Source: Chiridota heheva
Lineage: Eukaryota; Echinodermata; Holothuroidea; Apodida; Chiridotidae
Direction: 5' to 3'
Length of the DNA stretch: 64,000 nt
NCBI GenBank assembly: GCA_020152595.1
Contig: JAIGNY010004524.1
Span: forward strand, 43,501-107,500
Made by a program: the position numbers and the translations under genes. Position 1 is the first letter of the stretch; each line of letters begins with the position of its first letter. A model generated the notes under the pieces. It saw nothing but the letters and a program-made list of their open reading frames with translations, did no database searches and was not told where the DNA came from. Below are positions 561 to 60,099 of the stretch, piece after piece.

Positions 561-658
561 GGTCTCGAAAGAATGTTTCGAAATTCCGTCACTGTGTTTT
601 CGGGACACACATTCATCGAGACATTGCTAGGCAGCGTCATGTAAAACGATCTACCCAT
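561..658 (-). pseudogene. Penton-like minor capsid protein, N-terminal stub
   Basis: Reading leftward from ATG at 656-658, the sequence encodes a short N-terminus with the pattern SFYMTLPSN followed by CPENTVTEF, the signature start of the Polinton penton-like (minor capsid) protein. It matches the two copies in Polinton B at 48271 and 47005. The frame is open to 561, where the L2-like LINE begins, so only about 33 codons remain. In these elements the protein is expected to form the capsid vertices. It lies just downstream of the integrase in the same orientation, as in copy B. Confidence 0.65.
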
Positions 659-699
659 TGTAACGTCTCGCAGTCGAATGAAGGTGTTGTCAAACGACT

Positions 700-1793
700 T
701 TATAATTTAAGAACATCGGTGACCCAACTGTTGAATTTGGAAGGGTAACCGTACCATTTTACCAGATATTCTTTCGTTCCATCTTTACGTTTTCGTGATC
801 GAAGAATCTTCTCTATTTTATAAACTGCGTCTATTTCCTTTTTGCCGATCTTTTGTAATTCCTCTCGATAAAAGGTACGGCCACTTCTTCTCCTTCGAGA
901 TCTTCAACCGCATACACGACGGGTTGACGGCGGATAACTTTGTCGATTACAAATACTTCTTCGGTCCATCGTGGCATATAGCCTTTGCGAAATGGTCGTG
1001 TGACCATGCTCAAACGAACGACGTCTCCTATTTGTAAGGTTACACCTTTCATCTTCTTCTTTGACATTTTACCGTATAAAGCTTCCCAGACCTCCAATTC
1101 GTTACGCTCGTGGACATCTTCAGGAGCCCGTCTGATACTGCGATGCCGAGCACCGTTGTAGGCGACAAGAAGTTTGGGTAGTACGTCGACGTATTTGTAC
1201 GTGCTGTTTGCAGTGAAGTAGCGCCACATTCGAGTTTTGAGCGTACGGTTGAATCTTTCCACCACGCTGGCTTTGGTTTCGTTTTCCGTCGAGAAGAGCT
1301 TTACACCTTGTTTTTTCAAATAGGTCTGTACTTGATGATTATAGAATTCGGTTCCTTTGTCTGTCTGAAGCTTCCGCGGTAAACGTCCTGAATCTTTGAA
1401 CAACTTTTTGAATGCAGTCAAAAGTGATGCTCCTGATTTGTTTTTGAGTGGTATTGCCCATGCGAATTTGGAAAATACGTCTATACATGTCAACAACCAT
1501 TTTGTCCCTTTGTTAAACCGTGCGTAAGCACTGAGATCGACGAGATCGGCTTGCCATTGATCGTCGATACCATTTACGATGACTCTGTTTCTGTTGTACT
1601 TATGTCTCGAAGTCTTGTGCAAAGTGTACGTGTCTTGTTTTTCAAGCCATGTTCGTACCGCCGTTCGTTTCAGATTCGGAAACCGTTTCTTGGCCGCGGC
1701 GTACACGCTGTCGACTCCTGCGAAGCCAGCGGGATGCGATGGATCGTAGTAGATTTCTCGAAGTATTTCTTCCACCGTCGGTGACATCTTCAT
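700..1793 (-). pseudogene. Polinton integrase (DDE, retroviral type) with C-terminal chromodomain, one frameshift
   Basis: Retroviral-type integrase that would insert the element DNA into the host chromosome. Starting at ATG 1793, an N-terminal HTH-like region (residues 1-60) leads to the catalytic core: Asp in QADLVDL near residue 83, Asp in LQTDKGTEF near 145 and Glu in VVERFNRT near 179, a DDE triad with roughly the usual 35-residue spacing. An SH3-like segment follows, then a chromodomain (EIDAVYKIEKILRSR, then LVKWYGYPSKFN) that is in another frame because one G is missing near position 880 compared with copy B. The uninterrupted ORF therefore stops at 831, while the chromodomain frame ends at TAA 700-702. 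Everything else is intact. Confidence 0.9.
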
Positions 1794-1930
1794 TCCGAAT
1801 CACACGTCCACCGCAACAAGCGCTGACACAGTTGGTGTTTTTTAATAAATTGCGTAAGGTTACCCAAGATGATGCTGTACCTGCCATGTCGGTTTCTATT
1901 CTGTACTTATCAAACTCGAACGATGTCTTT

Positions 1931-2650
1931 TTATGTGTACTGTAACCATCGTGCTGCTCTTTGGTATCGGTCTCTGTGGCGGAAACGCTCTCTAAGAGAA
2001 GTTCTTGGCATATACATTGGTGTTTCCTCTTCTTCTTCTTCTTCTTCACGAGTCATTGGAATTTCTTTTTCTTCCACAGGGATTTCTTCTTTCTCAACGT
2101 CCCCCGTCTGATTAAATCGTCGAAGTCGTTCCCACATCTCTCTATTACCGACCAACTCTTGCGGAACATTGAGCCGTGATAATCCTTCGATAAACGCTTT
2201 ACGCCCGGTCGGACTGAAAGTTTTTCGGAAACGGATCGCATCGTTTACCAAATCTACCACATGACTCCCAGGTACGGTTTGACCTTCGACGATTAACTCC
2301 CCGCGAGGCGACCATTTCATCTCACGTAACACCATCCTGGCTAATTGTTCTGCTTTACCGCGTAATGCTTTTGGTGCGCTGGCGATCATCTCGTCGACGT
2401 GGTGTGTGGCAGGGACGGATGGTGGTGGTGTTGGTGGTACGGAAAATCCGATTGCTTTACGACGGTAAACAGTGAATAAACTTAATGCGTCTTCGTAAAG
2501 TTTGACTTTTTCTTCGTCCGTGATGTCGCGTCGATCCAAAATCTCTCTCATTTTTTCGTCCAGGGACAAAGTTTTGATTTTCTCCGGAGCTTCAAACACC
2601 TGTGCTTGCCGTGTCAGAGCGTCAGGAGTTACGACTAGCATTTTTTTCAT
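1931..2650 (-). CDS. Conserved Polinton protein of unknown function (239 aa)
   Basis: An intact 239-residue ORF beginning MKKMLVVTPDAL. I do not know a function for it. The middle holds a conserved block (ELIVEGQTVPGSHVVDLVND, then FRKTFSPTGRKAF and LSRLNVPQELVGN) of a type I recall next to the ATPase and small basic protein in metazoan Polintons. The C-terminus has a long Glu run (EEEEEEEE) and an Arg-rich tail (RERFRHRDRYQR), giving a strongly charged end. It lies 5 bp from the next minus-strand gene upstream, suggesting one transcription unit with the ATPase. A decayed homologue is at 49561-50100. A structural or DNA-packaging role is possible but is inference. Confidence 0.7.
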   Translation of the reverse strand: MKKMLVVTPDALTRQAQVFEAPEKIKTLSLDEKMREILDRRDITDEEKVKLYEDALSLFTVYRRKAIGFSVPPTPPPSVPATHHVDEMIASAPKALRGKAEQLARMVLREMKWSPRGELIVEGQTVPGSHVVDLVNDAIRFRKTFSPTGRKAFIEGLSRLNVPQELVGNREMWERLRRFNQTGDVEKEEIPVEEKEIPMTREEEEEEEETPMYMPRTSLRERFRHRDRYQRAARWLQYT

Positions 2651-2655
2651 GGTTG

Positions 2656-3003
2656 TTACAGCAGGAGTGGAATCACGGCAGGTAGTAAAGTCGGCAGTTG
2701 TTTCAGTATAGGTACTATAATGTTTTGAAAAAATTTGCCCGAGCCACGTTGTCGTAGTACTTGACGTTTGTACTTGATCGGGACGTTAGAGCAACCCAAA
2801 ATCACCAGTTTGCGTCGTTGTTTGGCGAGGGCTTTCTTCTGTGAGGGAGTCAGTTTCACCGTTCCTTCGGAGATGTTCAATGCACATTCGCAAAGACAAT
2901 GCAACAGTTGATTACTGGCGTGTTTCAACACGTGACGACGTTGTTTCGAACTGCCTTCGGCGATTGCTCTGAGATAGGGTTCTTGGTGTCTCCACTTCTC
3001 CAT
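2656..3003 (-). CDS. Small basic Polinton protein with hydrophobic C-terminus
   Basis: I choose the ATG at 3001-3003 (MEKWRHQEPYLRAI), giving 115 residues; the frame is open further upstream to 3096 but that part overlaps the upstream gene's 3' region. The protein is Lys/Arg-rich in the middle (QKKALAKQRRKLVIL, then KYKRQVLRQRGSGKFF) and ends in a hydrophobic segment (PILKQLPTLLPAVIPLLL). Small basic proteins of this layout accompany the ATPase in Polintons; whether they are core/condensing or membrane-active proteins is not known to me. It is sandwiched between the ATPase and the 239-aa protein on the same strand. The copy B homologue at 50113-50464 is frameshifted near its end. Confidence 0.7.
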   Translation of the reverse strand: MEKWRHQEPYLRAIAEGSSKQRRHVLKHASNQLLHCLCECALNISEGTVKLTPSQKKALAKQRRKLVILGCSNVPIKYKRQVLRQRGSGKFFQNIIVPILKQLPTLLPAVIPLLL

Positions 3004-3151
3004 GACGAATGAATGCACCCCACTTGGGTATACGTATTTTATTTCCTTCGCACATCCACACATGCAAAAACGGTTTAAAGATCCAAAAGATTGCAACGAA
3101 CCATTTCATTACTTTGCCAAAAGGTGCCATAATGTCGAGTGAAGAGAAAAG

Positions 3152-3798
3152 TCAACGACAATAGTTTTTATCGAGGCAAATACACGTATCGGCGGCCGAA
3201 GAGTCCGGTTTGTAAACGAAATCGATCGGGGTTTTAGGGGTGAAATCGATGAAAAGGTAGCCGTATGGCTCTCGTGTGGCATCGGCATAGGCTTCTCGGA
3301 CGTACCGCAAGCGGCCAGGAAACATCTGGCGAGCCAAATGATCGATAGAAGAAGCATCTCGAGGGTTTTGAAAAATATGAGATAATGAGTGTTTAGACTA
3401 AAGGGTACGTCCGCCTTTAAAAACAAGTTTTGTACGAGAAGCACAACGGATAGGTTACGATGATGACTGCCTTTTGTGAACAATGCAGTCACGACGGGGT
3501 TCAACTCGTTCATCAAATCGTCGATGACAATCAGCTTCCTATGCTCTGCATCCAACCGTTTCAGTTCTTCTTCACCGGGTAATCCTTCTATAAATTCGAC
3601 ATGAGGTAAAGCTTGTTTCAATGCTTCGTAATCGGGTTGGTATTCGGCATAAAACCAATACACGCGTTCGGGAGTTGGATCGATTAATTGCTCACGACGT
3701 TCCAACAGCGTTCTCACCCACCGGGTCTTCCCGCACCCTGTCGGCCCTGCAACGATACAAGTGAAAGGATGATGTAATGTTCCATCCAACGTCTCCAT
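3152..3798 (-). pseudogene. Packaging ATPase (FtsK/HerA-A32 type), frameshifted near the C-terminus
   Basis: Genome-packaging ATPase of the FtsK/HerA-A32 lineage, expected to pump element DNA into capsids. ATG at 3798. Walker A GPTGCGKT is at residues 18-25, Walker B KLIVIDDL at about 88-95, and a sensor-like VVLLVQNLF follows near 118-126. Near position 3370 one base is missing from an A run compared with copy B, so the continuous ORF drifts into an unrelated tail to 3109. The expected C-terminal region (HLARQMFPGRLRYVREAYAD, then EPYGYLFIDF) is in the next frame and ends at 3152. It is transcribed divergently from PolB. Confidence 0.9.
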
Positions 3799-4188
3799 TT
3801 CATGAATGTTACGATTAAACTGATGCTGTTCTTTATATTATCTAAAACATATTTACCTATCTTTTTTTTCTTCAGAAAAAGATAATAAAAAAATAATAAT
3901 AATTTCTCTATCTTTAAAAAACAACAATGATCGATATATAAAAAAAACAGATTCTAGTAGTTCGCTCTATACACATATTATTCGCCCTTAAAGATTGTCG
4001 CCTTAAATTGTGAAAGTCACCTTGAAAGGCACCTTTATACGCTGGCATCGTGCCAAGTCACCTTTAAACAATATGTGTGGGTATCGCGTCACCTTCAGAC
4101 AGAAGTTTGGGCATCGCGCCAAACGATATAAATTGGTATGAAATCTTTTGAATTGCATCACTCTATCTTTCGATCTCGAGAAAACAAC
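3799..4188. promoter_or_regulatory. Divergent promoter between ATPase (-) and PolB (+), with E2F-type site and TATA box
   Basis: About 390 bp separates the ATPase start from the PolB start. On the PolB side are three imperfect repeats (roughly 4016-4125) pairing a GTCACCTT-like half with a GGCATCGYGCCAA-like half. The last contains GCGCCAAA at 4116-4123, the inverse of the E2F/DP consensus TTTGGCGC, directly followed by TATAAATT at 4127-4134, about 60 bp before the PolB ATG. The ATPase side is A/T-rich with poly-A and poly-T runs. Binding is inferred from sequence only. Confidence 0.55.
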
Positions 4189-7100
4189 ATGGCCCAACGC
4201 ACGGTGGATTTGTTCGATCAAGGCTGAACGCTAGAAACAAGCAACACTCATGGACAAAGTTACTTTTTTAATCATAGGACAGGTGAAAAACGCTGGGAAT
4301 TGCCGGACGGGTTTGAAGACTCGATGGATTGGGAAGCACAAATCGATACGGAGGAATGGGATATCGAGGATTGGGATGCACAAATTGACACAGAGGAATG
4401 GGATATCAATTCCCAGGATTGTGAACTGGGGGAGATGATCGAGAGAGGAGGAAATAATTTAACCGATGAACTCAATACGTTTGTGAATCAATTAATTGCC
4501 GAAAACATACCAATTCCAGATGAACAATTATTACAATTACCTATCGTTCGTGAGTTTTTACCGCTCGTTGACGAAATAGAAAGACCAGATCAAGTTGGGG
4601 AATCACCTATCGTTCGTGAGTTTTTACCGTTCGTTGATGAAATAGAAAGACCCGATCAAGTCGGGGGAGCAGACGAGGTTGTGGATGTCGATCAGGACGA
4701 TGAAAAAGTTACCGTCGAGAGTTGCTATCGTATCGTGGAGACCCGAAGACGCCATATTCCCAGATATAACTCGGAGGCAAATGAACACGTTGTACGGTTC
4801 GACGGGGAAAGAATTGGTCGACTTGCCAACCAAGAAGAGGACATCGTCAACGTATTACATGCTGTTTTCGAAAGTCTCATCGAACGACTGGTAGAAGGTT
4901 TTGCTGCTCAAGATCGTGTGGGTTTTGAGATTCATTCACCCAGTCTAGAGTATCCGATATGGGTGCAACTCATGCGTAGAGATTAAATGAGCGTACAACG
5001 TCTTCTAACCGCCATTTTTCGAGTATTGTAATCAAAGACTGCTTTTGTGCTCGACGGAGACGTTGAAATCAGAGTGATTCACATCGAGATGCCTCAAGGA
5101 AGTGGCCGTACCAACATAAAAGACTGGACCTTGAAAAAACACTCTATCATCCGTATCGCAAACAAAGATCACCTCTGTCTAGCCCGAGCTCTAGTGACCG
5201 CCAAAGCCCGCATCGACAAAGAGAACGATAACGCCATCAACTGGGAAAACATTCGTCATGGTTTTGGTGAGCAAACGAGACTCGCAAGAGAGTTACACGA
5301 ACGAGCCGGCATTGCTTTGGCTCCTTGTGGATTGGAAGAAGTAGAGCGTTTTCAAGCCGTGTTACCCGATTACCAAGTGAATGTCGTTACTTCAAACCCA
5401 CACGACTTGTTTCTATTCAGGGGACATCCTCGTGCAAAAAAAACTTCATCTTTTCTACCATGATAATCATTTTGATGTTGTCACCTCACTTCCTGGACTA
5501 CTGGATACCCATTACTTCTGTGACATTTGTGAAAAAGGGTACGAAGTCTTTGACCACCATCGTTGCCATAAGGCTTGCGAATGTTGTTTCAATGCAACAA
5601 AAGAGGAATGCCTGCTTACCGAATGGATACATTGTAAAGATTGCGACCGATCCTTCAAGAGTCCGACATGTTTTGCTAATCACAAGAGGATCCCAAAAAG
5701 AAGCAAAGTCACGATCAAACCTAAAACCAAAACAATACCACGCTCAACCTGTCAACACATCTGTCGTTGTACTACTTGTGGAGTAACCGTCAAAGGACAG
5801 CACAAGTGTGGTCAACTTTACTGTAGAAACTGTGAGAGTCGCCAACCGTACGATCATCTTTGTTACATGCAAAAGATCAAAGGAGGAAGAGGGGGAGGAG
5901 AGGTAATTGTCGACGACGTAGAAGCTCGTGATGTTCTCGGCATGAAAGACGAACCAATGAAAGAAAAGAGCCTTCCTCTGAAATACATTTTTTTCGATTT
6001 CGAATGCATGCAGGAAGATAAACTCGACAACGGAGGATATTTACACGTGCCAAACTATTGTGTAGCACATCGTGTTTGTTTGAACTGTATTCAAAACGAA
6101 GATATTCATCAAGATTGTGTATCGTGTGGCAAACGAGAACATGTATTCTCGGGAAGAAACACTCAAAAAGACTTTTGTAGTTGGTTGCTTTCTCCAGAAA
6201 ACAAAGGGAGCACGGCCATCGCTCACAACATGAAAGGATACGACGGTCATTTTATTCTCGATCACATGAATAACATTGGAATGTGCCCCAACGTTGTGAT
6301 GAACGGAGCCAAGCTGATGAGCATCGACTTGAAAGAAAAAGCCAGGAACAAAAAAAGAAAGATGTCACGACCCTGAGGATCATCGATTCGTGTAACTTTA
6401 TTCCGGCTCCTCTCTCTTCTTTTCCCAAGACGTTCGAGTTGACGGAAAAGAAGAAGGGTTATTTCCCGTACCATTTCAACACTCAGCTCTATGAAAATTA
6501 CGTCGGTCCTTGGCCTGCAGTCGAAAACTACAATCCCGATCACATGAAACCTGCTCAGCGCAAAGCTTTTCTTGCTTGGTACGAAGAACAGAAGAACAAG
6601 ACTTTTGACATGGCTCGTGAAATGTACCAGTACTGTTGTAGCGATGTAGAACTACTCCGGCTAGGATGTTTACGTTTCCGAAAAGAGTTTGTTGAAACTA
6701 CGGGCGAAGATCCTTTCGAAAAATGCATCACTATTTCCATGGCCTGTATGCGCCTGTTTCGACGAAAGTTCCTTCGTACCGATACGATTGCCCTGGTTCC
6801 TCATTCGGGGTACGAAAATGATATACAATCGGTGAAAGCCCTTCAATGGTTGAAATGGATCGAGCAACGAGAGGGCCGACAACTGCAACACGCCCGATCT
6901 CCCAAAGGAGAAAAACACATCGGTCCCTACAAAGTAGACGGGTGGGATGAGACGTCAAAGACAGCCTACGAGTTCTACGGTTGTTTGTGGCATGGTTGTC
7001 CTACCTGTTACCCAAACAGAGAACACAAGCTGCCGAGGGTCGAAACAACCGTCGAAGATGTTCACGAGAAGTTTACCCGTAAACGAGACTGGCTGAACAA

Positions 7101-8635
7101 CGAAGGGCTTCGAGAAGGCTGGAAACTGGTTGAAATCTGGGAATGCGAGTTCCTAGACGAACTGGAGAGAAACCCGCAGGTGAAAGATTTCGTCGATAAC
7201 CTGAAACTGAACGAACCTCTCCGCCCCCGAGATGCGTTTTTCGGTGGACGGACCAATGCCATCAAGCTTCATGAAGTCGTCAAAGAAGACGAACAGATCA
7301 AGTACATCGATGTCTGTTCGCTCTACCCATATGTCAACAAGTATTGTAAATACCCTATCGGGCATCCGGATATCATCAAAACCCCGGACACCACCGACGT
7401 ACGTGACTACGAAGGACTGATCAAATGCACCATCTTGCCTCCTCGTGGTCTGTACCATCCCGTGCTACCGGTCCGATGTCGAGGAAAACTCATGTTTCCG
7501 TTATGTATCGCTTGCGCAGAGACTCTGGCCAAAGGAAGATGTAAACACTCTGATGAACTACGAGCACTTCACGGGACGTGGGTGAGCTGCGAGTTACAGA
7601 AAGCCGTAGCGACGGGTTACGAGGTGTTACATATCGGCGAGGTGTGGCATTTCAAGGAGACGATGCAGTACGATCCCGAAACGGGAGAGGCCGGTTTGTT
7701 CACGGCTTACATCAATACGTTTCTGAAAATGAAACAGGAAGCCAGTGGGTGGCCCGAAGGCTGCGAAACCGAAGAACAGCGTCGTCGGTACATCGACGAG
7801 TATGAGGCCCGAGAAGGGATCAGACTGGACTACCTCAACATCGCCAAGAACGAGGGAAAGCGATCGTTGGCTAAACTGATGCTCAACTGCTTTTGGGGAA
7901 AGTTTGGACAGCGAAGTGCACTTACCAAGACGGAATTTATCAACACTCTTGAAAAATTCTACAAGCTGTTGACGGACAAATCGAAACAAGTGAAATACGT
8001 GCAGTTTCACGACAAGTTCACCGCCCGCATCTAATGGGTCGACACGAACGAATACGTCGAAGTGTCGCCAAACACGAACATTTTTAACGCGGCTTATACC
8101 ACGGCTCACGCCAGTCTCAAACTCTACAGTTACATCGAGCGACTGGGGGAGCGCGTCCTCTACATCGACACGGATTCCGTGATTTACTTCAGCCGGCCGG
8201 GAACCTACGATCCACCTCTCGGCAACTTTTTTTGGCGACATGACAGACGAGCTGGAGAAATCTTACGGTGCCGGGAGCTACATCACAGAGTTTGTTTTTG
8301 GAGACCTAAAGAACTACGCTTACAAAGTTTGTTCGACCAAAGCAGGCGCCGTCGTCGTGGGGGAGTGCAAAGTCAGAGGCATCACGTTGGACCACAACAC
8401 CATTCTATCGGTCAACTTCAAGGCGATGATCAACATGGTAAATCACGTAGATCCTGGAACAGGCCGAGCCTGGGAAGACGACGAAGAACTCATCGTTCCT
8501 GTCCATTATCCTCACAGCATCAGGAGAGACGGTCCCGGAAGAGTTCTCACCAGATCCATTACCAAGGATTACAGACTGATCTACGACAAACGCGTCATCC
8601 AAGCAGATCTTTCGACCCTCCCGTACGGTTATTGA
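4189..8635 (+). pseudogene. Polinton protein-primed DNA polymerase B, broken by stops and frameshifts
   Basis: Replicative DNA polymerase of the element. I start it at ATG 4189-4191 because coding homology runs in frame from there, through a WW-like motif (YFFNHRTGEKRWELP), an acidic stretch with internal duplications, and on across TGA 4225, TAA 4984 and TAA 5029. Then come the family block HLCLARALVTAKA, Cys/His clusters (5515-5850, zinc-finger-like), Exo I (FFDFECMQ, about 5990), Exo II (HNMKGYDGHFIL, about 6226), Exo III (YCCSDVELLR, about 6631), motif A (DVCSLYPYVN, about 7309), motif B (NCFWGKFGQR, about 7885) and motif C (YIDTDSVIYF, 8161-8190). Frame changes occur near 5440, 6370 and 8230 (an expanded T run), plus a TAA at 8032 where copy B has CAA. 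Catalytic residues are retained, so decay looks recent. Confidence 0.9.
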
Positions 8636-8824
8636 AAGAGCGCCACCATATATACGGTCGTCGAAAACAGATCTTCAAGCCGTATACGATCACACACCAA
8701 ACTTTTCGTGTAGATACAGAAAGAGCGCCACCATTAACAATGCTGCTTTACTCTCATTGGTCAGAAAGAACATAAAAAGGCAAACCTCGCAGAAGTTCGA
8801 TTCATTATTCCATTAGACACCAAC
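8636..8824 (+). promoter_or_regulatory. Promoter region of gene X (repeated GAGCGCCACCA motif, inverted CCAAT, TATA-like)
   Basis: Between the PolB stop and gene X are two copies of AAGAGCGCCACCAT (8638 and 8718), an inverted CCAAT box ATTGGTCAG at 8756-8764, and a TATA-like CATAAAAAGG at 8771-8780, about 45 bp before the ATG. The same order (GAGCGCCA, then CCAAT-like, then TATA-like) recurs before gene X of copy B, where a CRE-like TGACGTCA is also present. Compared with copy B this interval lacks about 390 bp, including small gene V. Confidence 0.5.
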
Positions 8825-9609
8825 ATGGATACCACACTTAACAGTACGAGTTCAGGGCAGAAACGTAAAGCAACGTCGGAACATACACAGGCATCAAAGA
8901 AACCACGCAACGAGACCTTCAACGTAGTAAAAATGGCCCCTTCGCAAATCATCATGACAGAGATCAGACATGTGGTGCGCGACGACTCTTGCGATCCTGA
9001 CATATACGGAGAACACACCGGCGAAGGAGACTTCACATTACCATTCTACAACGCATTAGGTTGTCTCACCGCGTTTATGGCCCCCTAGGATTTGGCATGG
9101 ATGAAGAAGGAGAAGTACTTGAACATTTGTTGAAAGAGGCAAAGAAACACATGGGCATGGAGGAGGATCATACAAACATTCTGCAGAACGAAACGTCACC
9201 AGCCGTCAAGTCGACAGAAGAAGACTCTCTTTTGTTTAAAGAGAAAAAGAACTGGCCAAAATTCCTAAAAGCGATGACGGAGATAGCACACGACTTGTTG
9301 AAAGCCCAATTGACACAAGCCATATTGGTCAACGACCTGATCAAGAAGGTCGAAGAAAAGAAAGGCAAAGTAAAAGAGATTCAACGCCCGCTGAATACAG
9401 ATCCACTCACGAAAGACATTTTCAAAGAGCTGGAAAGGAAAATGAAGGAAGAGGTTAGCAAAGACTACGGGGAAGAGAAGGTACTCTGTTTGTTGAGAGA
9501 CGTCATCTATGCAACGCTAGGAAGCTATGCTGATCGATTGAGCAATCTCGGTCTCAAATGCAAAGTGATGGACTGTCTGTGGGACTTGATTATTGTGGGA
9601 GAATGTTAA
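8825..9609 (+). pseudogene. Gene X: unknown Polinton protein with NLS and coiled coil, one frameshift
   Basis: About 260 residues. It starts at ATG 8825 with an N-terminal stretch rich in basic clusters (GQKRKATSEHTQASKKPRNE) that resembles a bipartite nuclear localisation signal. A conserved segment follows (VRDDSCDPDIYGEH, then FYNALGCLTAF), then a long Lys/Glu-rich helical region (KFLKAMTEIAHDLLKAQ, LIKKVEEKKGKVKEIQ) likely to form a coiled coil. One base is missing near 9085 compared with copy B, moving the second half to another frame; the ORF ends at 9609. I do not recognise the family. Copy B (58833-59570) confirms that it is a real gene. AATAAA occurs at about 9635. Confidence 0.65.
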
Positions 9610-9663
9610 AACATTGTATGTGTTTGAAGAAAAAAATAAAAATATTTTAAAAAATGAAAAAAT

Positions 9664-9740
9664 GAGGGCGGAAGGAGTACAAAATCGTGGCATGACTCCT
9701 ACGGTACCACTGCGTTGGTTGGGGCAGGTACTTTACCCTC
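9664..9740 (+). ncRNA. Conserved 77-nt element predicted to fold as a three-way junction (copy A)
   Basis: Closing stem GAGGG (9664-9668) with CCCTC (9736-9740); second stem AGGAGT (9673-9678) with ACTCCT (9695-9700); third stem GTAC+CTGC (9704-9713, two-base bulge) with GCAG+GTAC (9724-9731). Homologues at 43239-43315 and 25959-26040 keep the same three pairings with different bases. It lies 55 bp after the stop of gene X. The fold is my hand pairing. No known ribozyme core was found, and it could act as RNA or as cruciform DNA. Confidence 0.5.
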
Positions 9741-9854
9741 GTATGTAAATATTCAAAAAAGAGAAAAATGAATTTAAAGACATTCGAAAAGAGTTCGAGG
9801 CTACCGTAGAGACTACCGTAGAAGTTTTGACCTAACTCATCATACCTTTCTTTT

Positions 9855-9941
9855 TTCAAAAGAGCGCCACCAACTCGAATGGTATCATACCTTTCTGGCT
9901 TCTGATTGGTCGAAGAGATCTAAACAAAAAAGCATAAATAG
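9855..9941 (+). promoter_or_regulatory. Promoter of gene Y (GAGCGCCACCA, inverted CCAAT, TATA-like)
   Basis: AAGAGCGCCACCA at 9860-9872, inverted CCAAT in TGATTGGTCG at 9903-9912 and CATAAATAG at 9933-9941, the same order as before gene X. A short reading frame opens at ATG 9978 and stops after seven codons, so the first coding exon or leader of gene Y probably starts here. Confidence 0.5.
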
Positions 9942-10074
9942 AGCAAACTTGATCAATTCTTTTCTTTAAGTGACAGCATGGTACCGGGCACAGGGTATTA
10001 GTTTTTCATTTTCCTTAGTTGGCTGAGGTTGCCAGTGGCCACTACAATCCTTTAAAAAAAAAAAAAAAAAGTTG

Positions 10075-10127
10075 ATTACCTGACATGTAAATCGGGCCAG
10101 CCTTCGGGCTGGCTATCGATAGGTAAT
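10075..10127 (+). other. Stable nested hairpin with UUCG tetraloop
   Basis: Core stem GCCAGCC (10096-10102) and GGCTGGC (10107-10113) around a TTCG tetraloop. It is extended by ATCG (10091-10094) with CGAT (10117-10120) and an outer ATTACCT (10075-10081) with AGGTAAT (10121-10127). It follows a poly-A run, so it may belong to an inserted element rather than to gene Y. Function unknown. Confidence 0.45.
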
Positions 10128-10166
10128 GTTAATGGATTGATAAATATTTCATATTCAATTCTTTTC

Positions 10167-10442
10167 TATCTACCTACTGTGGTGTAGCGGTTATCATACC
10201 TGTCTACAGACCACGAGGCCCGGGTTCAATCCTGGGGCGGGTAGACACGCCAGTGCACCACAACTGGTTATCAAAGGCCGTGGACATTGACTTGGTTGTC
10301 GATGTTATGTCTGTCCGTACGTCGTACCTGTGTTCTCGTCCGGGTCGTATTAAGCGTTTCGTGATAGCATTTGTACTATCATAACCGAATACGCAGGCGA
10401 CGACCCCGTCATTGTAATTGTGTGTTCAACTCTCTCTCTCTC
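10167..10442 (+). mobile_element. tRNA-derived SINE with 12-bp target-site duplication
   Basis: The first ~75 bp resemble a tRNA (closest by eye to tRNA-Val): an A box-like GTGGTGTAGCGGTTATCA and a B box GGGTTCAATCC, flanked by CTACC and GGTAG that could pair as an acceptor stem. A ~200-bp unrelated body follows, ending in a (CT)n run. The element is bounded by identical TCAATTCTTTTC at 10155-10166 and 10443-10454, a clear target-site duplication, so the insertion is young. A functional tRNA is unlikely because the stems are imperfect. Confidence 0.7.
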
Positions 10443-10480
10443 TCAATTCTTTTCATTCTGAGTTTCAGAGAGAACACATC

Positions 10481-10951
10481 ATGCCTCAATACTTGCCATT
10501 ATCGCCAATATCCACGGTTTTTTTCCCTAACGGGTTTACAAGGAGAATGTTAACACAGGAGGGAGATCCCATCAGAGCTTACTACCGGTTCGGTTTGGCA
10601 CACAAATTCGACAACAGAGTACACAAAACATCGGCCGTCAGAACACCGCCGAGATACCTACATCAAAGACCAGATCACCCTCAGAACTTTGCAATGAGAG
10701 AGAGTAAGTGGGGGAAAGCACGCTTCTCCAAGGCTCGTCTGCGTTATTACGCTTGCAGAACTCCAGCATATTATAGATTTCTCAACCACTACAAGGTTAA
10801 AGCCCAGAAAAGGAAAAGATACATGTCTAAGCCACCTTGGGTAAGAGGAATGTTCGTAGCCAACGTGATGAGACATCGTAAAACGCATAGAGAAATGTTG
10901 AGGAGCAAAGCAACAGATGGGCATCAATGGACTACGGGAGGAGGACAGTAA
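10481..10951 (+). CDS. Gene Y: small, very basic Polinton protein, possibly DNA-condensing
   Basis: Intact 156-residue ORF beginning MPQYLPLSPISTVFFPNGF. I count about 33 Lys/Arg against 7 Asp/Glu, with Arg/Lys-rich stretches such as KVKAQKRKRYMSKPPW and MRHRKTHREML plus many Tyr residues. There is no recognisable family. A basic virion core or DNA-condensing role is inferred from composition only. It is the outermost gene on the right. Its stop is followed 32 bp later by a histone-type 3' stem-loop, and no AATAAA lies in between. A decayed homologue is at about 59890-60005 in copy B, sharing the SKPP segment. The ORF may have an upstream exon (see 9942-10480). Confidence 0.6.
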   Translation: MPQYLPLSPISTVFFPNGFTRRMLTQEGDPIRAYYRFGLAHKFDNRVHKTSAVRTPPRYLHQRPDHPQNFAMRESKWGKARFSKARLRYYACRTPAYYRFLNHYKVKAQKRKRYMSKPPWVRGMFVANVMRHRKTHREMLRSKATDGHQWTTGGGQ

Positions 10952-10980
10952 CAGATCGATCGGAGATCGATAAAGAACCC

Positions 10981-11020
10981 AAAGGCTCTTATAAGAGCCA
11001 CCACAAATATAAGAAAGAGA
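10981..11020 (+). terminator. Histone-mRNA-type 3' end: stem-loop plus downstream element (gene Y)
   Basis: GGCTCTTATAAGAGCC at 10984-10999: a perfect 6-bp stem with a 4-nt loop, preceded by AAA and followed by ACCACA (11000-11005). It matches the metazoan replication-dependent histone 3' stem-loop. AAGAAAGAGA at 11011-11020 matches the purine-rich histone downstream element bound by U7 snRNA (sea urchin CAAGAAAGA), at the usual distance. It sits 32 bp after the gene Y stop. A very similar arrangement ends gene Z in copy B. Confidence 0.75.
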
Positions 11021-11033
11021 AAATTGAATTATG

Positions 11034-11196
11034 ACAATGTGTTTGTGTTTATTGTTTTCCCTCCAAAAGATGTGACGCCCTTCGGTCGTGTGGTAAAATC
11101 ACAGGGAACCTATACAGGTAGTGACCAATCAGGAGCCAGTATTCCCCCTGGTTTATTATTGTGTGTTTATTGTTTTCCCTCCAAAAGATTTGACAC
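11034..11196 (+). repeat. Tandem duplication near the Polinton A right end
   Basis: The sequence TTTATTGTTTTCCCTCCAAAAGAT occurs at about 11046 and again at about 11166, each followed by a copy of the CCTAT-CAGGTAGTGACCAATCAGGAGCC module (11105-11148 and 11197 onward). So about 117 bp of subterminal sequence is duplicated. A related CTTTTGGAGGGAA stretch lies at the equivalent place in copy B (about 41987). Confidence 0.55.
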
Positions 11197-11321
11197 GAGG
11201 AGCCTATCCAGGTAGTGACCAATCAGGAGCCAGTATTCCACCTCATTTGCATATTCTATGAATATTTATGAGAAATTAGGAATACTGGCTCCTGATTGGT
11301 CACTACCTGGATAGGCTCCTC
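11197..11321. repeat. Palindromic end module of Polinton A (two 43-bp arms)
   Basis: Left arm 11197-11239 and right arm 11279-11321 are inverted copies running from GAGGAGCCTATCCAGG to GGAGCCAGTATTCC, each with a CCAAT box (GACCAATCAG). The 39-bp spacer contains the octamer ATTTGCAT. Related palindromes lie at 41850-41963 (copy B left end) and 25522-25621 (copy C). I take it as the element's terminal module or TIR tip; it could also be a bidirectional promoter or a separate MITE. Confidence 0.6.
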
Positions 11322-11440
11322 TTACTACTACTATGGTCACTAAACATTTTTCACAAAAATTAGTAAAGAAAGCTAAAAAGCATAATTAGATTAGAGTTCT
11401 AGCCCGGGCTAAATCGAATACTATATTAAATTATATTTCA
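11322..11440. other. Short non-coding stretch right of Polinton A
   Basis: About 120 bp between the palindrome and the first minisatellite. No gene or repeat structure seen. Confidence 0.4.
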
Positions 11441-24960: not shown

Positions 24961-25520
24961 AGGGCACCTTTTCTTCGATTTTCAAAAAAAACATCAATTA
25001 TTGGCAAATGTTGCCAAATTTACACAAATCCCCAATGATTTTACTAAAATTTCTGCATTTTTTTGGATAATTTCCCAATTTTCTCAATCGAAAGAAAACC
25101 TTTCAGGAAGTACCGTTCTCTCTGCTCCCGACTCTGCACACTTGTCCCAATATGCTGCATAACAAAACTACTCATAAAACACGTTATCATGATGTTTTGG
25201 TTTGACATCCTGCTGTAGGTGTAATTGCGACGATCCTGGTCTGAGGTCATTATGTCAAGGCTAGATAAAATGGCGGATATTCAGAGTCGTGTCTAACCAA
25301 TGTTTAAAAATTGTGCTGTAGCTATCCTTAATTAACTTTAAACCGGGGATAATGTTTTATTACCCTGGTTAAACATTAATGGCAGGCTAATATAAATGTC
25401 TGATGCATTAATGTTGGCGAGTGAAGCCACAGAGAAAGTTCATACTAGGTAACCAATTTCTCCACAGGCCAGTAGTTCATACTAGGTAACCAATTCCTTC
25501 ACGGGCCAGTAGTAAGGGGC
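24961..25520. other. Non-coding stretch left of Polinton C
   Basis: No gene. A 36-bp direct repeat TAGTTCATACTAGGTAACCAATT...GGCCAGTAG lies at about 25437 and 25475. Confidence 0.4.
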
Positions 25521-25521
25521 G

Positions 25522-25621
25522 ACTATACAGACCCTGATTAATCAGAAGCCAGCATTGGTATTACGTGATAACTTATTTGCATATACTTAATGTTGGCCTC
25601 TGTTTGGTCGGGGTCTGTATA
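25522..25621. repeat. Palindromic end module of Polinton C (degenerate)
   Basis: Left arm 25522-25558 (ACTATACAGACCCTGATTAA..CAGAAGCCAGCATTGG) and right arm 25586-25621 are imperfect inverted copies. The spacer has TTACGTGATAA and the octamer-containing TTATTTGCATATA. Related to 11197-11321 and 41850-41963. Confidence 0.55.
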
Positions 25622-25900
25622 GGGCCCTTGAGATTTTCCATCTGGGTCATCGGATTGCCGTCACAGGATATTCTCGACGATGGAGCTTCTGATTGGTCGG
25701 TGTCTGTATAGTGACCCCTGATTTTTCATCTGGGTCATCAGATTGCGTCATCTTAGAGAGAGGGTATTCAGGTCATCGGATTAATGTCACAGGATATTTT
25801 AGACGACGGAGTTTCTGATTGGTCGGAGTTTGTATAGTGGCCCCTGAGATTGTTTCATCTGGGTTATCGGATTGCCATCACAAGATATTATCGATTAGTC
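25622..25900 (-). repeat. Tandem subterminal repeats with CCAAT boxes
   Basis: Three degenerate ~95-120-bp units containing CATCTGGGTCATCGGATTG, CGTCACAGGATATT, GACGATGGAGCTTCTGATTGGTCGG and GTCTGTATAGTG.CCCCTGA. Each unit carries an inverted CCAAT in the same context as the palindrome arms. Confidence 0.6.
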
Positions 25901-25958
25901 TGCAGAGTCCTTTTAACAAGGTATATAGCTTTTCCTGACTGGGTATTTCAGGTGATTG

Positions 25959-26040
25959 TAGGGTAAAAGTACCTGCCTCAACCAACGCAGGATACCGTAG
26001 GAGGGAAGCCATGGTAGCTCTTTTCCCTCCTTCCGCCCTC
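25959..26040 (-). ncRNA. Conserved three-way-junction element (copy C)
   Basis: Read on the minus strand: closing stem AGGG/CCCT (one pair fewer than A and B), second stem AGGAGGGAA with TTCCCTCCT (9 bp, longer than in A and B), third stem GTA+CCTGC with GCAGG+TAC. It lies about 130 bp past the end of PolB and in the same orientation relative to the genes as copies A and B. Confidence 0.5.
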
Positions 26041-26170
26041 ATTAGGGTTTCATCGGATCTTGAGTTACGAATGCTGGCATTCAGCAGTGTGGTCTAATTG
26101 AATCACCCGATTGTCATAGACGAACCTGTCCGTTTCATGTAATGAGACTTGTGGGATGAGAGGTTTCATA

Positions 26171-29100
26171 CCCGTACGGGAGGGTTGTGAGATCGGGCTG
26201 AATAAGGCGTTTTGTATAGATCAGTCGATATTCCTAGGTGATGTCTTTGGTGAGAACTTTACCGGAACCGTCTTTCTGAATGCGGTGAGGGTAGTGGACG
26301 GGAACGATGACTTCTGCATCATCGTCCCAAGCCCTACCGCTTCCTGGATCCACATGATTGACCATATTTTTCATCGCTTCAAAATTAACCATTTGAATGG
26401 CATTGTGGTCCAAAGTGATGCCCTTCACTTTGCATTTTTCGACAATGACAGCGTCAGTTTTGGTTGAGTGCACTTTGTAAGCATAGTTCTTTCAACCTCC
26501 CGATACGAATTCAGTGAAGTAACTCCCGATACCGTAAGGTTTCTCGAGCTCATCGATCATGTCGCCCAGGAAGTTTCCGACGGGTGGTTGCCAATCTTCG
26601 GATTGATGGGCGTGAACGATGGAATCGGTGTCGAAGTAGACCACGCGTTCCCCTAGTTTTTTCCAGGTAGCTGTAAAGTTTGAGGCGGGAGTGGGCCGTG
26701 GTATAGGTTGCATTGAATATGTTGGTGTTAGGTGACACTTCAATATACTCATTGGTGTCGACCCACTGGATCCTGGCTTTAAACTTATCGTTGAACTGCA
26801 CATATTTCACTTCTTTGGATTTGTCCATCAGCAGTTTGTAGAACTTTTCCAGGGTGTTGACAAACTCTGTCTTGGTGAGTGTGTTGCGTTGATTAGACTT
26901 TCCCCAGAAGGAGCTTAACATTAGCTTAGCCAAGGCACGATTACCCTCGCTATGTGGGTTGAGTCGGATACCTTCAAGTGCTTCGTAATTGTTGATGTAC
27001 TGGCGACGTTGCTCTTTGGTGTCGCATCCTGGAGGGCATCCGCTCACTTCTTGTTTCATTTTCAGGAACGTGTTGGTATAAGCTGTGAACAAACCTGCTG
27101 TTCCGTTTGAGGGGTCGCAACGTACCGTTTGGTTAAAATCCTACACTTCTTCGACATGTAAAACGCGATACCACACCTCTACAGCTTTTTGCAACTCACA
27201 GCTCACCCAACTTCCATGGAGAGCGCGTTGATCTTCGTGGTGTTTGCATGGTTCTTTGGCTAGTGTTTCTGCGCAGGTGGCACATAGTAGGAACAAGACT
27301 TTTCCTTGACATCGGTACGGGAGTACGGGATGGTAGAGACCACGAGGAGGTAGGACGGTGCATTTGATCAGTTCTTCATAGTCTCTCACATCGGTCGTGT
27401 TCGGGGTCTTGATGATAGTAGGATGGCCGATAGGATACTTGCAGTATTTGTTAACCCACGGGTAGAGTGAACAGACATCGATGTATTTAATTGTATCATC
27501 GTCTGCAACGACATGGTGCAGTTTAATGGCATTGGTGCGTCTTCCGAAGAAAGCGTCCCTTGGTTGGAGAGGTGATGTCAGTTTCAGGTTATCGATGAAG
27601 TTTTTCATCAACGGATTCCTCGCCAGCTCATCTCGGAACTGGCATTCCCAGATCTCTACTAATTGCCAGCCTTGACGACGACCTTCGTTAATTAACCACT
27701 CTCGTTGTCGGTTGAGCTTAATATGAGCATCCTCGACGGTTGTTTCGACACCTGGCAGTTTTTGATTTTCTTCTTGGGTAGCAGGTTTAACAACTATGCC
27801 ACAAACAACCGTAGAACTCAAAGGCGGTCTTTGACGCTTCATCCCAGCCGTCAACTTTGTAAAACCCTACGTGTTTTTCTCCTCCACAAGACCGAGCATG
27901 CTGAATGCGTCGACCATCTTGGTGCTCTAACTATTTCAACCATTGGAGAGCTTTGACGGGTTGGGTGTCATTATTGTAACCACGATGAGGAACCAGAGCG
28001 ATCGTATTAGGGCGTAGGAACTTTCGTCGAAACATCCGCATACAGTCCATGGAGATAGTGATGCATTTTTCGATCTCAAACATCCTCGACGAAGCAGTTC
28101 TACGTTGCTGCAACAGTACTCGTACTTTTCTCGAGCCATGACAATAATCTTGGCCTTCTGCTCCTCATACTAGACGAGAAAATCTTTTCGTTGAGCAGGT
28201 TTCATGTGATCGGGATTATAGGTATCAACTGCAGGCCATGGGCCGACGTAATTTTCATTAGCTCTGGTGTTAGAAAGGTACGGAAAATACCTCTTTTTCA
28301 TCTCTGTCAATCCGAACGTCTTGGGAAAGGATGATAGCGGAGCCGGAATGAAATTGCACAAGTCAATGATCCTCAAGGTTGTGACATCTTTCTTTTTCTT
28401 ACTTCTGGCTTTTTCTTTCAAGTCTATACTCATCAGTTTGAATATGTTCATCACGGCATTGGGACACATTCCGATGTTGTTCATGTGGTCGAGAATGAAA
28501 TGGCTATCGTATCCTTTCATGTTGTGTGCAATGGCCGTGGCTCCTTTGTTCTCTGGAGAAAGTAACCATTGGCAAAAGTCTTTTTGAGTATTTCTTCCTG
28601 AAAAGAGGTGTTCTCGCGCGCCACATGTCTCGAAGCCTTGACGAATATCATTGTCGCGGATGCAGGTCAAACAAACACGATGCGCCACATAGTAGTTCGG
28701 CACATGCATGTAACCACCGTTGTTGAACTTACCGCATTCGAAATCGAAGAAAATGTATTTCAACGGAAGGGTCGCTTCTTCATCCTCTACCTCGTCTTCC
28801 AGACCGAGAATAACTCGAGCCTCTTCGTCATCGATTTCAACGTGTGCTCCTGCTTCCTCTCTATCCTTAATTACTTGCATGATGCAAAGATGGTCGTTTG
28901 GTTGGTAACTTTTGCAGTTTCGACAGTAACTTTGACCATATTTGTGTCGATCCTTAACAGTGGTACCACAAGAGGGGCAACGACGGATACGTTGACAGAT
29001 CGTACGTGGCGGTGTTTTTGTCTTGGTTTGAATCCTGGTTTGGCTTTTTTGGAATCTTCTTGTGGTTTGCAAAACAAGTCGGATTATTGAACGATCGGTC

Positions 29101-29226
29101 ACAATCGTCGCAATGCCTCCATTTAGTCAATTGGCATTCTTTCTTCCCTACATTGAAACAACACTCACAAACGTTACGGCAACGATGATCCTCAAAGTGG
29201 TTACACCCGAACCACATGACTACCAT
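26171..29226 (-). pseudogene. Polinton PolB copy C (N-terminal third missing, frameshifted)
   Basis: Starts within the Cys/His cluster region (FEDHRCRNVCECCFNVGKKE) near 29226 and runs to the family C-terminus LPYGY near 26171. Exo I appears as FFDFECGKFNN, Exo II as HNMKGYDSHFILD, motif A as DVCSLYPWVNKY and motif C as YFDTDSIVH (about 26610-26640), with the catalytic Asp pair intact. At least five frame changes and an in-frame TAG near the end break it. The N-terminal WW-like and acidic part is absent. Relative to copies A and B the sequence is clearly divergent. Confidence 0.85.
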
Positions 29227-40660: not shown

Positions 40661-41849
40661 GGTACCGAAAGGACGTAAAGGCTTGTTCACAACGGGACGA
40701 AAAAGTAAAAAGGAACGATCTTACCGAAAGCAGACACCCATACACGAAAAAGGAAATCCTGGAAAATAAAGGTGCAAAAGTTTAGGTGAAAAGTGCGTTG
40801 TAGAATACTCAGAAAGAAAAGATAGAGAGAAAAGAAGGAAGTCACGCTGCTCTCAACACATGAACGCAGTTTATAATGGTATTGTGTTAAATAAATAAAC
40901 ATTTTGAAAGATCTACCATGGATATGTAGCAATTTCTATATTAGGTTTCAACGTTTTGAATTTGAAAATCTATAGCACATTATATATCACATAGTTTTCG
41001 CGCTATGGCTGATCAAATATGATCGATTTTCTATATTTGCGAATTTATGTGGTATGACTATGACTGGGAGGACAGCTCAAAATCTTTGTCAATCTTTATT
41101 GATTTCTTTCCTTAATCTTCGTATAAGTTGGGATAGTCTATTCCTACTAGAATTTGATCGAGGATATCATGGTAAAAACTCAAAACCGTTTAGTCAGTGC
41201 ATATCTCGAGCAAGCGGGAAGGCTTAGCGTCAGGGTTCATTGTATGATATATAATTATAAATACATGATAAATATAGATGCATGTAACTTCAATATAAAT
41301 CTATTAAACCCCGCGCACTGATATTCAAAAACACGAAAGTGCATTTTTTCAGAGGGCGCACAGATAAAAAGTCGATCGTTTCACTAAAGCAGTATAATTC
41401 TTATTATCATACTCCACCAAACGAGCCAAATTAACGAGCCTCAAATTGTAAGTTGTACCCAACTCAGGCAGTCAGGTCAGAAATGGTACGCAGAGGTCAA
41501 CTTCGCGTAATGTTTAAGCAGCGCAGTAATATAGTACTTTAGCTAATAAAAAGTAAGATATTCCTGGTTAAAGAACGTAACTTAGCCTTTGACAAAATAC
41601 CACGTAAAAAAGAAGATGCATTTTTAAACCCATTTTGTGATAATTAGATTAATTAATTCATTATATGCATATATCAGTCTAAACAAACATTTGTGCTTGT
41701 CAAACGACTCAACGGAAATTTGCAAATCGAACTCGTTCTCGATGTTTACTGCATGAACTAAAATTCAGAGGTAAGTCAAGTAATGATGTTCTGTTCCTAT
41801 GAACGAGAATGAAATAGCTCGAGGAACACAATTGTGAATAAAGTACTTA
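40661..41849. other. Non-coding stretch between LINE and Polinton B
   Basis: About 1.2 kb, A/T-rich, with no supported gene or repeat. Confidence 0.4.
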
Positions 41850-41963
41850 GAGGAGCCTATACAGAAGTCGACCAATCAGGAGCCAGTATTACTATCACGT
41901 GATAGCTCATTTACATATTCATAATACTGCTTCCTGATTGGTCGACTTCTGTATAGCTTCCTC
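41850..41963. repeat. Palindromic end module of Polinton B (two 41-bp arms)
   Basis: Left arm 41850-41890 (GAGGAGCCTATACAG ... GACCAATCAGGAGCCAGTATT) and right arm 41923-41963 inverted, both with CCAAT boxes. The 32-bp spacer holds the palindromic ATCACGTGAT and an octamer-like CATTTACAT. The same outer sequence AGAGGAGCCTAT borders the right end of copy A. Confidence 0.6.
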
Positions 41964-42258
41964 GAATTGTATCATACGACCATCTCTTTTGGAGGGAAGG
42001 GATGTTGGTTTATATACGACCGTCTCCCCAGTTTTAGGAGAGTGTTGGTTTTATATACGACCGTCTCCCTATTTCTTCATTGGTCGGTCGGTTGGTGGAG
42101 AAAATGTTTTATCGAAAAATAAGGATTGGTGGGGAAAAATTTTCATCGAGGATTAAGGTTCCAGGGTTTGCTGGGAGAACACGCAAAAACATAACAAACA
42201 TGGACGTTACAATGTCACACAACAAAATAAAAACGATAAGAATGGCAAAATTGAATTT
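41964..42258 (-). other. Subterminal region of Polinton B
   Basis: Contains CTTTTGGAGGGAAGG, matching the CCTCCAAAAG element near the right end of copy A, and a repeated TGGTTTATATACGACCGTCTCCC (about 42008 and 42047). No gene. Confidence 0.45.
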
Positions 42259-42295
42259 TCTCTTTCTTATACCTGTGGTGGCTCTTAAAAGAGCT
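42259..42295 (-). terminator. Histone-mRNA-type 3' end: stem-loop plus downstream element (gene Z)
   Basis: On the minus strand: AAGCTCTTTTAAGAGCC followed by ACCACAGGTA and TAAGAAAGAGA (complement of 42259-42269). The stem GCTCT/AGAGC (42290-42294 with 42281-42285) has lost the outermost G-C pair to A-C. The ACCACA flank and purine-rich downstream element match those after gene Y. It sits about 32 bp past the gene Z stop. Sequence beyond it (AAAATTCAATTTTGCCAT) also resembles copy A (AAAATTGAATTATGACAAT). Confidence 0.7.
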
Positions 42296-42326: not shown

Positions 42327-42794
42327 CTACTCGTCCATAGTGCAAAAAGAACCATCGCAGAGACGATGACCATCTGTTTGTGTTTGTATGTTTCTATCAA
42401 TCTCCACAATCTCCTCCCTCATCTTTGCCTTTGCCTTTTCTACATCTCTGGTGGGGCCAGCGTACCACTTTTGTGTCTGCAGGTACATTTCTTCCTGTTT
42501 CTGTTTCTTTTCTTCTTCCTCTTTCTTTTTCTTGTTCTTTGTTTGTTTTTCTTCTTCCGGCCATTCGTCTTTGACGAACCATTTCTCGTCACAGGCCTCT
42601 GCCACCTCGGCCCACTCTCCGTTGGCCAGTATAATCATCGTCTCTTGTTCGCCGTTGTCCGCAGGCTGTTCGGTCCGGACTTTAAATGGAGGATCTTCAT
42701 CCAAGTCCTGGTTTTTCGTCCTTGACGAGACATCATTAGACCTCCAGTTACTCTTTGTTGCTGACGAAGCATCGTCAGTCCTAGGTATCCTCAA
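42327..42794 (-). pseudogene. Gene Z: charged coiled-coil protein, unknown function
   Basis: About 155 codons are open, but the 5' limit has no ATG in frame (upstream in-frame TAG near 42805), so the start is lost or lies in another exon. The middle reads IILANGEWAEVAEACDEKWF, then a Lys/Glu run (EEEKQTKNKKKKEEEEKKQK) and MYLQTQKWYAGPTRDVEKAK, suggesting a long charged helix. No family recognised. It is the outermost left gene and reads out toward the palindrome; its 3' end carries the histone-type stem-loop. Confidence 0.5.
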
Positions 42795-43238
42795 ACCTCT
42801 CTAGTATGTCAAACTACCTGTATAGATTAGCCATGGCAGTTTGATAAATTATCCAATCGAATGATTGAAAATTACCAAAGCTGATAGTTTTATTCTGTCA
42901 ACGACCCGCCGCTTTTTCTCCACACCTTGCCGTGATTGTTTATTGGTGTTGCTCAGAAGTACAGGTTTGTAAAAACACGTCCTGATTGATTTCCAACAAG
43001 TCAGACAGCAGACACTTGTCTGGTTCGTGTCTGTGCACGTGCCCCTGATAGGCTGTTCTGAGGATCACGCCTGTCTGGTGTGGCTTCACGTGTGTTGTTG
43101 ACCGAGTATCCAGACATCGTGTCGTTGATCTTCTTTTGGGATGTTGCTCTGAATGGTAGCCTTGAAACTCTACGGTGCGTCTTAATGCAAGTTTCTCTTT
43201 CATGACTGATTATAAAAGACTCTTCAAAAGAGTTCCAC
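42795..43238. other. Intergenic stretch between genes Z and W
   Basis: Contains TTATCCAATCGAATGATTG (about 42848) with a CCAAT box that could be part of the gene Z promoter region. No convincing gene. Confidence 0.35.
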
Positions 43239-43315
43239 GAGGGTAAATGCACCTGCCTTAACCATCGGAGGGTGTCGTAGGAGACATGCCATGGTTTTGT
43301 ACTCCTTCCGCCCTC
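43239..43315 (-). ncRNA. Conserved three-way-junction element (copy B)
   Basis: 77 nt, as in copy A. Read on the minus strand: GAGGG/CCCTC closing stem, AGGAG/CTCCT (plus ACA/TGT) second stem, CACC/GGTG third stem. The third-stem pair that is T-A in copy A is C-G here. It lies 127 bp past the stop of gene W, orientation as in copies A and C. Confidence 0.5.
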
Positions 43316-43441
43316 ATTTTTTTAAAACTCATTTTCTCTTTAAAAACAAGAAAATAAGACGCAGTTATATGGCATAATAAAATACAACAATAAACATTTG
43401 CTTTTTTAATGTTCAAACAGGTGTAGAAAACCCTTCTTCTT

Positions 43442-58315: not shown

Positions 58316-58630
58316 ATGGGTATTCTAAACGAGGAAGAGGCATTTGTGTGGAATCGCTTATGGTGGCCTATGCTTGCAAAAAGTCAACGTCAAAAAGCCA
58401 CAGAGTACGGAAATTTTACTGTTTGAGTGATGAAACTGGATATAGAGATGAGCACTTGGATCTTGTTCATTAATCCTTGTTTTCATCTCGATTGTGGGGA
58501 AGGATCACATAGAAAGGTAATACTAGAGATTTTGCGAAACTTCAGTTGGAGATTGTACAGAGATTGAGAAATATACCGCCTTCATGCCGGAACATATTTC
58601 TGCTTGGTTGAAAACAAACGATGTAAGAGT
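58316..58630 (+). pseudogene. Gene V: small unknown ORF remnant between PolB and gene X
   Basis: ATG 58316-58318 opens MGILNEEEAFVWNRLWWPML, then AKSQRQKATEYGNF and a TGA after about 36 codons. A shifted frame continues as CLSDETGYRDEHLDLVH. It has its own promoter-like region. The corresponding ~390 bp are missing in copy A, so comparison is not possible within this window. Unrecognised. Confidence 0.35.
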
Positions 58631-58639
58631 CCGTATTGA

Positions 58640-60005: not shown

Positions 60006-60099
60006 TCTGAATCTGAATCTGAATCGATTAAGTCGGCAAAAATCCTTTAAGAGGACACGAACGCCAACCGAGCGTTCCGTAAAAAGTATGAGTACAAAT

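Follow-up and report, generated by a model that had tools for sequence, protein, structure and literature searches.

A predicted histone-type mRNA 3' end behind the right-terminal gene of a Polinton in Chiridota heheva

To our knowledge, the histone stem-loop is seen as all but exclusive to replication-dependent histone genes, and we know of no mobile element that uses the histone mRNA pathway. The locus described here raises the question of whether a Polinton may do so. In the 64,000-nucleotide stretch of Chiridota heheva DNA that we analyzed (the window), a small gene near the right end of one Polinton copy, here gene Y of copy A, is followed by what reads like the end of a histone mRNA:

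10481-10951, + strand: gene Y, 156 amino acids, pI 11.25, with ATG at 10481 and TAA at 10949-10951
10984-10999, + strand: putative histone-type stem-loop GGCTCTTATAAGAGCC, flanked by AAA and ACCACA, called from its fold and from 37.5 bits against RF00032
11011-11027, + strand: purine-rich downstream element with an AAAGAG core at 11014-11019, 14 nt past the stem, kept in a second Polinton arm (copy D)

The preliminary description of this DNA had placed a stem-loop with an ACCACA flank 32 bp past the gene Y stop and a purine-rich element 11 nt past the stem, and both were borne out. The 16-mer GGCTCTTATAAGAGCC at 10984-10999 lies 32 nt from the stop, ACCACA follows it directly and AAGAAAGAGAAAA comes next; AAGAAAGAGA begins 11 nt past the stem, with the AAAGAG core at 14 nt. 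The Rfam family Histone3 (RF00032) matches positions 10979-11025 (+) over the whole model (1-46) with 37.5 bits, against a gathering score of 34, and with an E value of 2.3e-7 as computed for 4227 families and 64 kb. This is the sole gathering-level Rfam match in the window, and by this curated covariance model the signal behind gene Y is a histone-type 3'-end signal. The 28-nt hairpin stretch is predicted to fold at -9.4 kcal/mol, and none of 200 shuffled sequences folds equally well. Pairing with a human U7 arm, a sequence that may differ from the host's, did not exceed that of shuffled sequences, being equaled by 77 of 500 shuffles for copy A and by 162 of 500 for copy D.

In histone mRNAs, the stem-loop is bound by SLBP, which contributes to their processing, export, translation, and stability and whose level goes up ahead of S phase (excerpts of PMC7614891). 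The U7 snRNP pairs with the histone downstream element and CPSF73 cleaves (excerpts of PMC7614891 and PMC7026596), and the mouse H2a element has AAAGAG as its purine core (excerpts of PMC7026596). The signal behind gene Y shares with the histone 3' UTR stem-loop (RF00032) and U7 element the 6-bp stem, the 4-nt loop, the A-rich 5' flank, and the ACC(A) 3' flank, as well as the AAAGAG purine core, a short distance from the stop, and one uninterrupted ORF upstream. It differs in that gene Y encodes no recognizable histone and sits in a transposon, and in that the corresponding signal of copy D is sub-threshold.

Could such a resemblance arise by chance? A text pattern that combines the stem-loop consensus with an ACC-type flank occurs once on both strands of the window, where 0.00075 occurrences are expected from base composition, and GGCTCTTNTNAGAGCCACCACA had no matches in a prokaryote collection of 257 billion bases. 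Bare matches to the pattern do exist elsewhere, as a looser version found seven loci in IMG/VR, but none of the seven holds a gathering-level Rfam match, and they therefore look like chance; a covariance model built from copies A and D gave one weak partial match among them, at the pattern itself (E 0.033). Behind gene Y, a chance resemblance would have to account for the E value given above and for a second block at the corresponding place of another arm, and we consider it extremely improbable.

That other arm belongs to copy D and comprises the following features:

43321 down to 41842, - strand: copy D right arm, in the order structured element, ORF, stem-loop, AAAGAG element, terminal repeats
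42327-42794, - strand: ORF upstream of the second stem-loop, 155 amino acids, acidic, pI 4.84, TTG-started in the ORF table
42280-42295, - strand: second putative histone-type stem-loop, AGCTCTTTTAAGAGCC-ACCACA, 31 nt past the ORF stop, below the Rfam cut-off
42260-42265, - strand: AAAGAG core, 14 nt past the stem
41842-41998, - strand: right-terminal region, from sequence comparison

The order of elements is the same as in arm A. The related block, stem-loop plus purine element, which the preliminary description had not listed, spans 42300-42246 (-) and scores 21.6 bits against RF00032 (cut-off 34; E 0.21). Its stem has lost the outermost pair to an A.C mismatch at the base, and its hairpin is predicted to fold at -5.6 kcal/mol, with one of 200 shuffles as good. 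The spacing is nearly unchanged, with 31 nt from stop to stem in D versus 32 nt in A and 14 nt from stem to AAAGAG in both. When A and D are aligned, 44 of 50 columns are identical across the stem-loop and downstream element, versus 34 of 69 in the flanks (13 of 29 before the block, 21 of 40 after), a difference with a Fisher p of 1.2e-5 for block borders that were picked after the alignment was seen. A search of the window with the covariance model built from A and D returned these two at E 1.2e-17 and 4.1e-17, scores that are no new evidence, both being its building sequences, together with six further matches (E 0.032 to 2.4), of which the first is in copy D but on its other strand.

The coding parts of the two arms behave otherwise. 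The gene Y product and the copy D ORF product gave no alignment, and gene Y searched against the translated frames of arm D with phmmer reached a best E of only 0.97, leaving homology of the two proteins unsupported. Because the two products do not align, the noncoding block appears either to have been conserved more strongly than the coding part or to be independent of it. Retention of two elements without the ORF is the pattern that a working histone-type 3' end would leave, the ORFs having diverged or been exchanged, although gene conversion, or a common origin of the block, could mimic such constraint, both positive arms coming from one window. Near arm D there is no PolB match, and copy D is not a whole element here. 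Directly established, in our view, are the signal with its statistics, its placement at the right end of the Polinton, and the preferential conservation of both elements in the second arm.

The two arms also bear on the idea of a DNA palindrome with some other role, such as a terminator or a terminal DNA element for replication or packaging. The hairpin does lie about 100 nt ahead of terminal direct and inverted repeats, as this idea would have it, but both arms have the strand-specific parts (ACCACA past the stem, AAAGAG at 14 nt, and a U-H-U-H loop) on the coding strand, and the distance from the ORF stop is nearly fixed. We judge a palindrome of this kind to be very unlikely.

Two further Polinton copies in the window lack the signal:

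25508-26164, - strand: copy B right arm, with structured element and terminus present
26164-29197, - strand: copy B polymerase, related to copy A
48176 to about 59566, + strand: copy C, related to copy A
59863-59956, + strand: gene Y relic of copy C

In the copy B right arm we found no gene Y, no stem-loop, and no Histone3 match. The relic in copy C is recognized by tblastn (E 0.003 at 59863-59943) and by 71% DNA identity over 90 bp at 59867-59956, and no Histone3 match up to E 10 was found in 58600-64000. The four copies thus comprise one above the Rfam cut-off (A), one sub-threshold homologue (D), and two without the signal (B and C). The recurrence that the preliminary description had looked to in other Polintons is therefore partial within the window, where it holds for one of the three other copies and there below the cut-off. 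Its naming of a U7/SLBP 3'-end signal is upheld by the 37.5 bits of copy A and by the block in arm D, and is qualified by the 21.6 bits of that block and by copies B and C.

Copy A itself has the gene content of a Polinton:

561-11329, no strand assigned: the part of Polinton copy A that the window covers; homology to copy C starts at 561; rve, IVa2-like ATPase, DNA_pol_B_2; right terminus motif at 11329
831-1793, - strand: retroviral-type integrase, Pfam rve PF00665, E 2e-13
3109-3798, - strand: packaging-type ATPase ORF, Pfam Adeno_IVa2, 28.2 bits with a cut-off of 21
5381-8775, + strand: DNA polymerase B, DNA_pol_B_2 family, PF03175 at E 1.5e-31 in 6544-8034
9097-9609, + strand: gene Z, acidic, with AATAAA 26 nt past its stop and related sequence in copy C

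An rve-type integrase, a family B polymerase of the protein-primed type, and an A32/IVa2-type packaging ATPase, three of the criteria for a Polinton, are all found here. Of the terminal inverted repeats and 6-bp target duplication expected at Polinton ends, the window covers the right side, where A, B, and D share an AG-starting terminus. Positions 1-560 look like the 3' end of a LINE, and the left terminus of copy A lies outside the window. Copy A resembles Polintons/Mavericks and adintoviruses in its rve integrase, adenovirus-IVa2-like ATPase, DNA_pol_B_2 polymerase, and AG-starting right terminus, and differs in that capsid and protease genes are unrecognized among the ORFs scanned in the window (none among 10 copy A ORFs scanned with Pfam, the left part of the element being outside) and in its predicted histone-type mRNA end, unreported in the literature searched. 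Gene Y and the stem-loop lie inside the element, adjoining its right end, because the right terminus is common to A, B, and D. The polymerase frame is interrupted (ORFs 5381-6376, 6283-8034, 8062-8775, and 8240-8635, in two frames) and the gene Y leader carries insertions, for which reasons this copy may be dead. Searches of IMG/VR with gene Y, integrase, ATPase, and three PolB queries matched 2, 5, 11, 47, 11, and 2 stretches, none confirmed by tblastn, and the 15 stretches matched by PolB in prokaryote genomes were likewise not confirmed. Between integrase and ATPase, two ORFs in 1931-3063 (-) have no Pfam match above the curated cut-off.

What gene Y encodes is less easily said. Its product has 33 K/R versus 7 D/E residues and finds no family match up to E 1 in Pfam, PHROGs, or NCBIfam; among PDB sequences there is a single, non-histone match at E 0.25. 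A full-length structure model has a mean pLDDT of 55.5, and the C-terminal 77 residues modeled alone form three helices at pLDDT 71.1; neither of these low-confidence models has a fold match at E <= 0.001. That gene Y might itself be a histone was not supported, as Pfam, PDB sequences, fold comparison, and tblastn were all without histone similarity. By sequence comparison the product is basic but not detectably a histone, and perhaps a small DNA-binding protein. Of the histone parallel drawn in the preliminary description, the charge stands (pI 11.25), while similarity to histones does not, and since the copy D ORF is acidic, the signal does not always go with a basic protein. Upstream of gene Y we note the following:

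9905-9939, + strand: candidate gene Y promoter motifs, ATTGG (inverted CCAAT) at 9905 and TATA-like ATAAAT at 9934, by consensus only
9953-10454, + strand: apparently two insertions in the gene Y 5' leader, bounded by three copies of TCAATTCTTTTC at 9953, 10155, and 10443

The second insertion has a tRNA-Cys-like head at 10171-10244.

Such motifs might suggest that a Polinton ancestor picked up the 3' end of a host histone gene, perhaps with its promoter, and that this tail hitch-hikes and may still work but has no element-specific role. The match of the block to the Rfam histone model is full-length, and CCAAT, TATA-like, and octamer motifs are nearby, yet an octamer alone is weak, with 12 exact copies in the whole window. 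There is also no histone coding remnant, four human histones compared with the whole 64-kb window by tblastn reaching a best E of only 0.58 and both gene Y and the copy D ORF having no Pfam histone match, and conservation centers on the two processing elements. A captured tail of this kind seems to us unlikely.

Some histone genes have a second poly(A) site, and the stem-loop could likewise be used conditionally on a transcript that is polyadenylated too. In copy D, AATAAA lies 19 nt past the ORF stop and 7 nt ahead of the stem-loop, as such a dual end would have it, but in copy A the first AATAAA downstream of gene Y is 875 nt from the stop (ATTAAA is at 474 nt), and we find a dual end decidedly improbable. 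Gene Y's missing nearby signal is itself a weak point and not special, because four of the seven other copy A ORF stops examined also have no AATAAA or ATTAAA within 100 nt (360, 810, and 860 nt, and none in 1000). The remaining three have one at 26 nt (gene Z), 66 nt (the ATPase ORF), and 85 nt, and the window as a whole has 1.5 poly(A) signals per kb and strand.

Taken as a whole, the evidence leads us to think it probable that, for its right-terminal gene, this Polinton lineage draws on the SLBP/U7 pathway of its host. The right-terminal transcript would end with the cis-signals of histone mRNAs, an SLBP-type stem-loop and a U7-type purine element. SLBP would bind the Polinton stem-loop, the U7 snRNP would pair with the AAAGAG element, and CPSF73 would cleave after ACCA(CA), giving a gene Y mRNA without poly(A) that would be stable and translated mainly when SLBP is high, in S phase. 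A small basic protein would thereby be tied to the period in which copying of the element is possible. Processing, the lack of poly(A), S-phase timing, and DNA binding of the gene Y product are all things that we infer, and S-phase translation of gene Y seems to us less likely than use of the pathway. More tentatively, and with chances that we would put close to even, an animal Polinton family may have adopted the SLBP/U7 snRNP, no-poly(A) pathway so that the gene at its right end, whose product is a candidate protein of chromatin or of the virion core, is expressed only during DNA replication, and the terminal CCAAT/octamer arrays may be an S-phase promoter to match or else belong to the replication origin. 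The latter would parallel adenovirus ends.

If this explanation is correct, it would show that the histone 3'-end pathway can be captured by a selfish element, would link Polintons directly to S phase, and would make available a naturally occurring non-histone transcript on which SLBP and U7 could be tested. An Rfam model match beside polymerase and integrase elements could serve as a simple marker for more cases in animal genomes. The earlier remark that no such end had been reported in Polintons agrees with our literature search, which among open-licence papers found no transposon or Polinton with a histone-type mRNA end; in three papers on Mavericks, Polintons, and relatives (PMC8097293, PMC10120064, PMC11071308), 'histone' and 'stem-loop' do not occur. 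Among animal DNA viruses, the Histoid genes of Xeno-class adomaviruses and tailtomaviruses are likewise small genes with a possible chromatin link (excerpts of PMC11071296), and one Histoid-bearing virus pairs its Histoid gene with adintovirus-like virion genes, as excerpts of the same paper describe. Histoid proteins resemble histones in those excerpts, whereas gene Y has no such similarity and no link was found; the main text of PMC11071296 does not contain 'stem-loop'.

The right ends of the copies have further features in common:

11105-11329, no strand assigned: right-terminal region of copy A, with direct and inverted CCAAT-containing units, octamer ATTTGCAT at 11245, and terminus AGTAGTAAG... 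on the minus strand
9658-9745, + strand: conserved structured element of copy A, between genes Z and Y, a predicted three-way junction
43234-43321, - strand: conserved structured element, copy D
25955-26046, - strand: conserved structured element, copy B

Read inward, the right terminus is AGTAGTAAGAGG at 11329 (A), AGTAGTAAGGGG at 25508 (B), and AGTACTTAGAGG at 41842 (D), so that all three start with AG. The right termini (11105-11329, 41842-41998, and 25508-25725) carry direct plus inverted CCAAT-box units, with ACCAATCAG in A, B, and D. The octamer ATTTGCAT stands between the inverted arms at 11245 and 25575 and has one mismatch in D; we see in this CCAAT/octamer arrangement a likeness to the Oct-1 site of adenovirus origins or to an H2B-type promoter. 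A perfect 43-bp inverted repeat with arms 39 nt apart occupies 11197-11321, immediately inward of copy A's right terminus.

About 88 nt long, the structured element is conserved in three of the Polinton right arms; AATGAGGGCGGAAGGAG is found close to its beginning and TTTACCCT toward its end. It has no Rfam match at E <= 1, and its pattern did not occur in IMG/VR. The predicted junction has 25 pairs, two of them changed on both sides in one sequence, and folding of the single sequences is unexceptional (z -0.9, -0.9, and -1.9). It is possibly a new structured RNA or ribozyme. Weak matches to the stem-loop model built from A and D lie at 43181-43227 (-) and 9753-9777 (+), with E 1.3 and 0.25, both just 3' of the structured element and each with AAAGAG, which in the copy D match is preceded by an imperfect hairpin, ACTCTTTTGAAGAGT. 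These weak matches may represent a second, decayed 3' end or chance.
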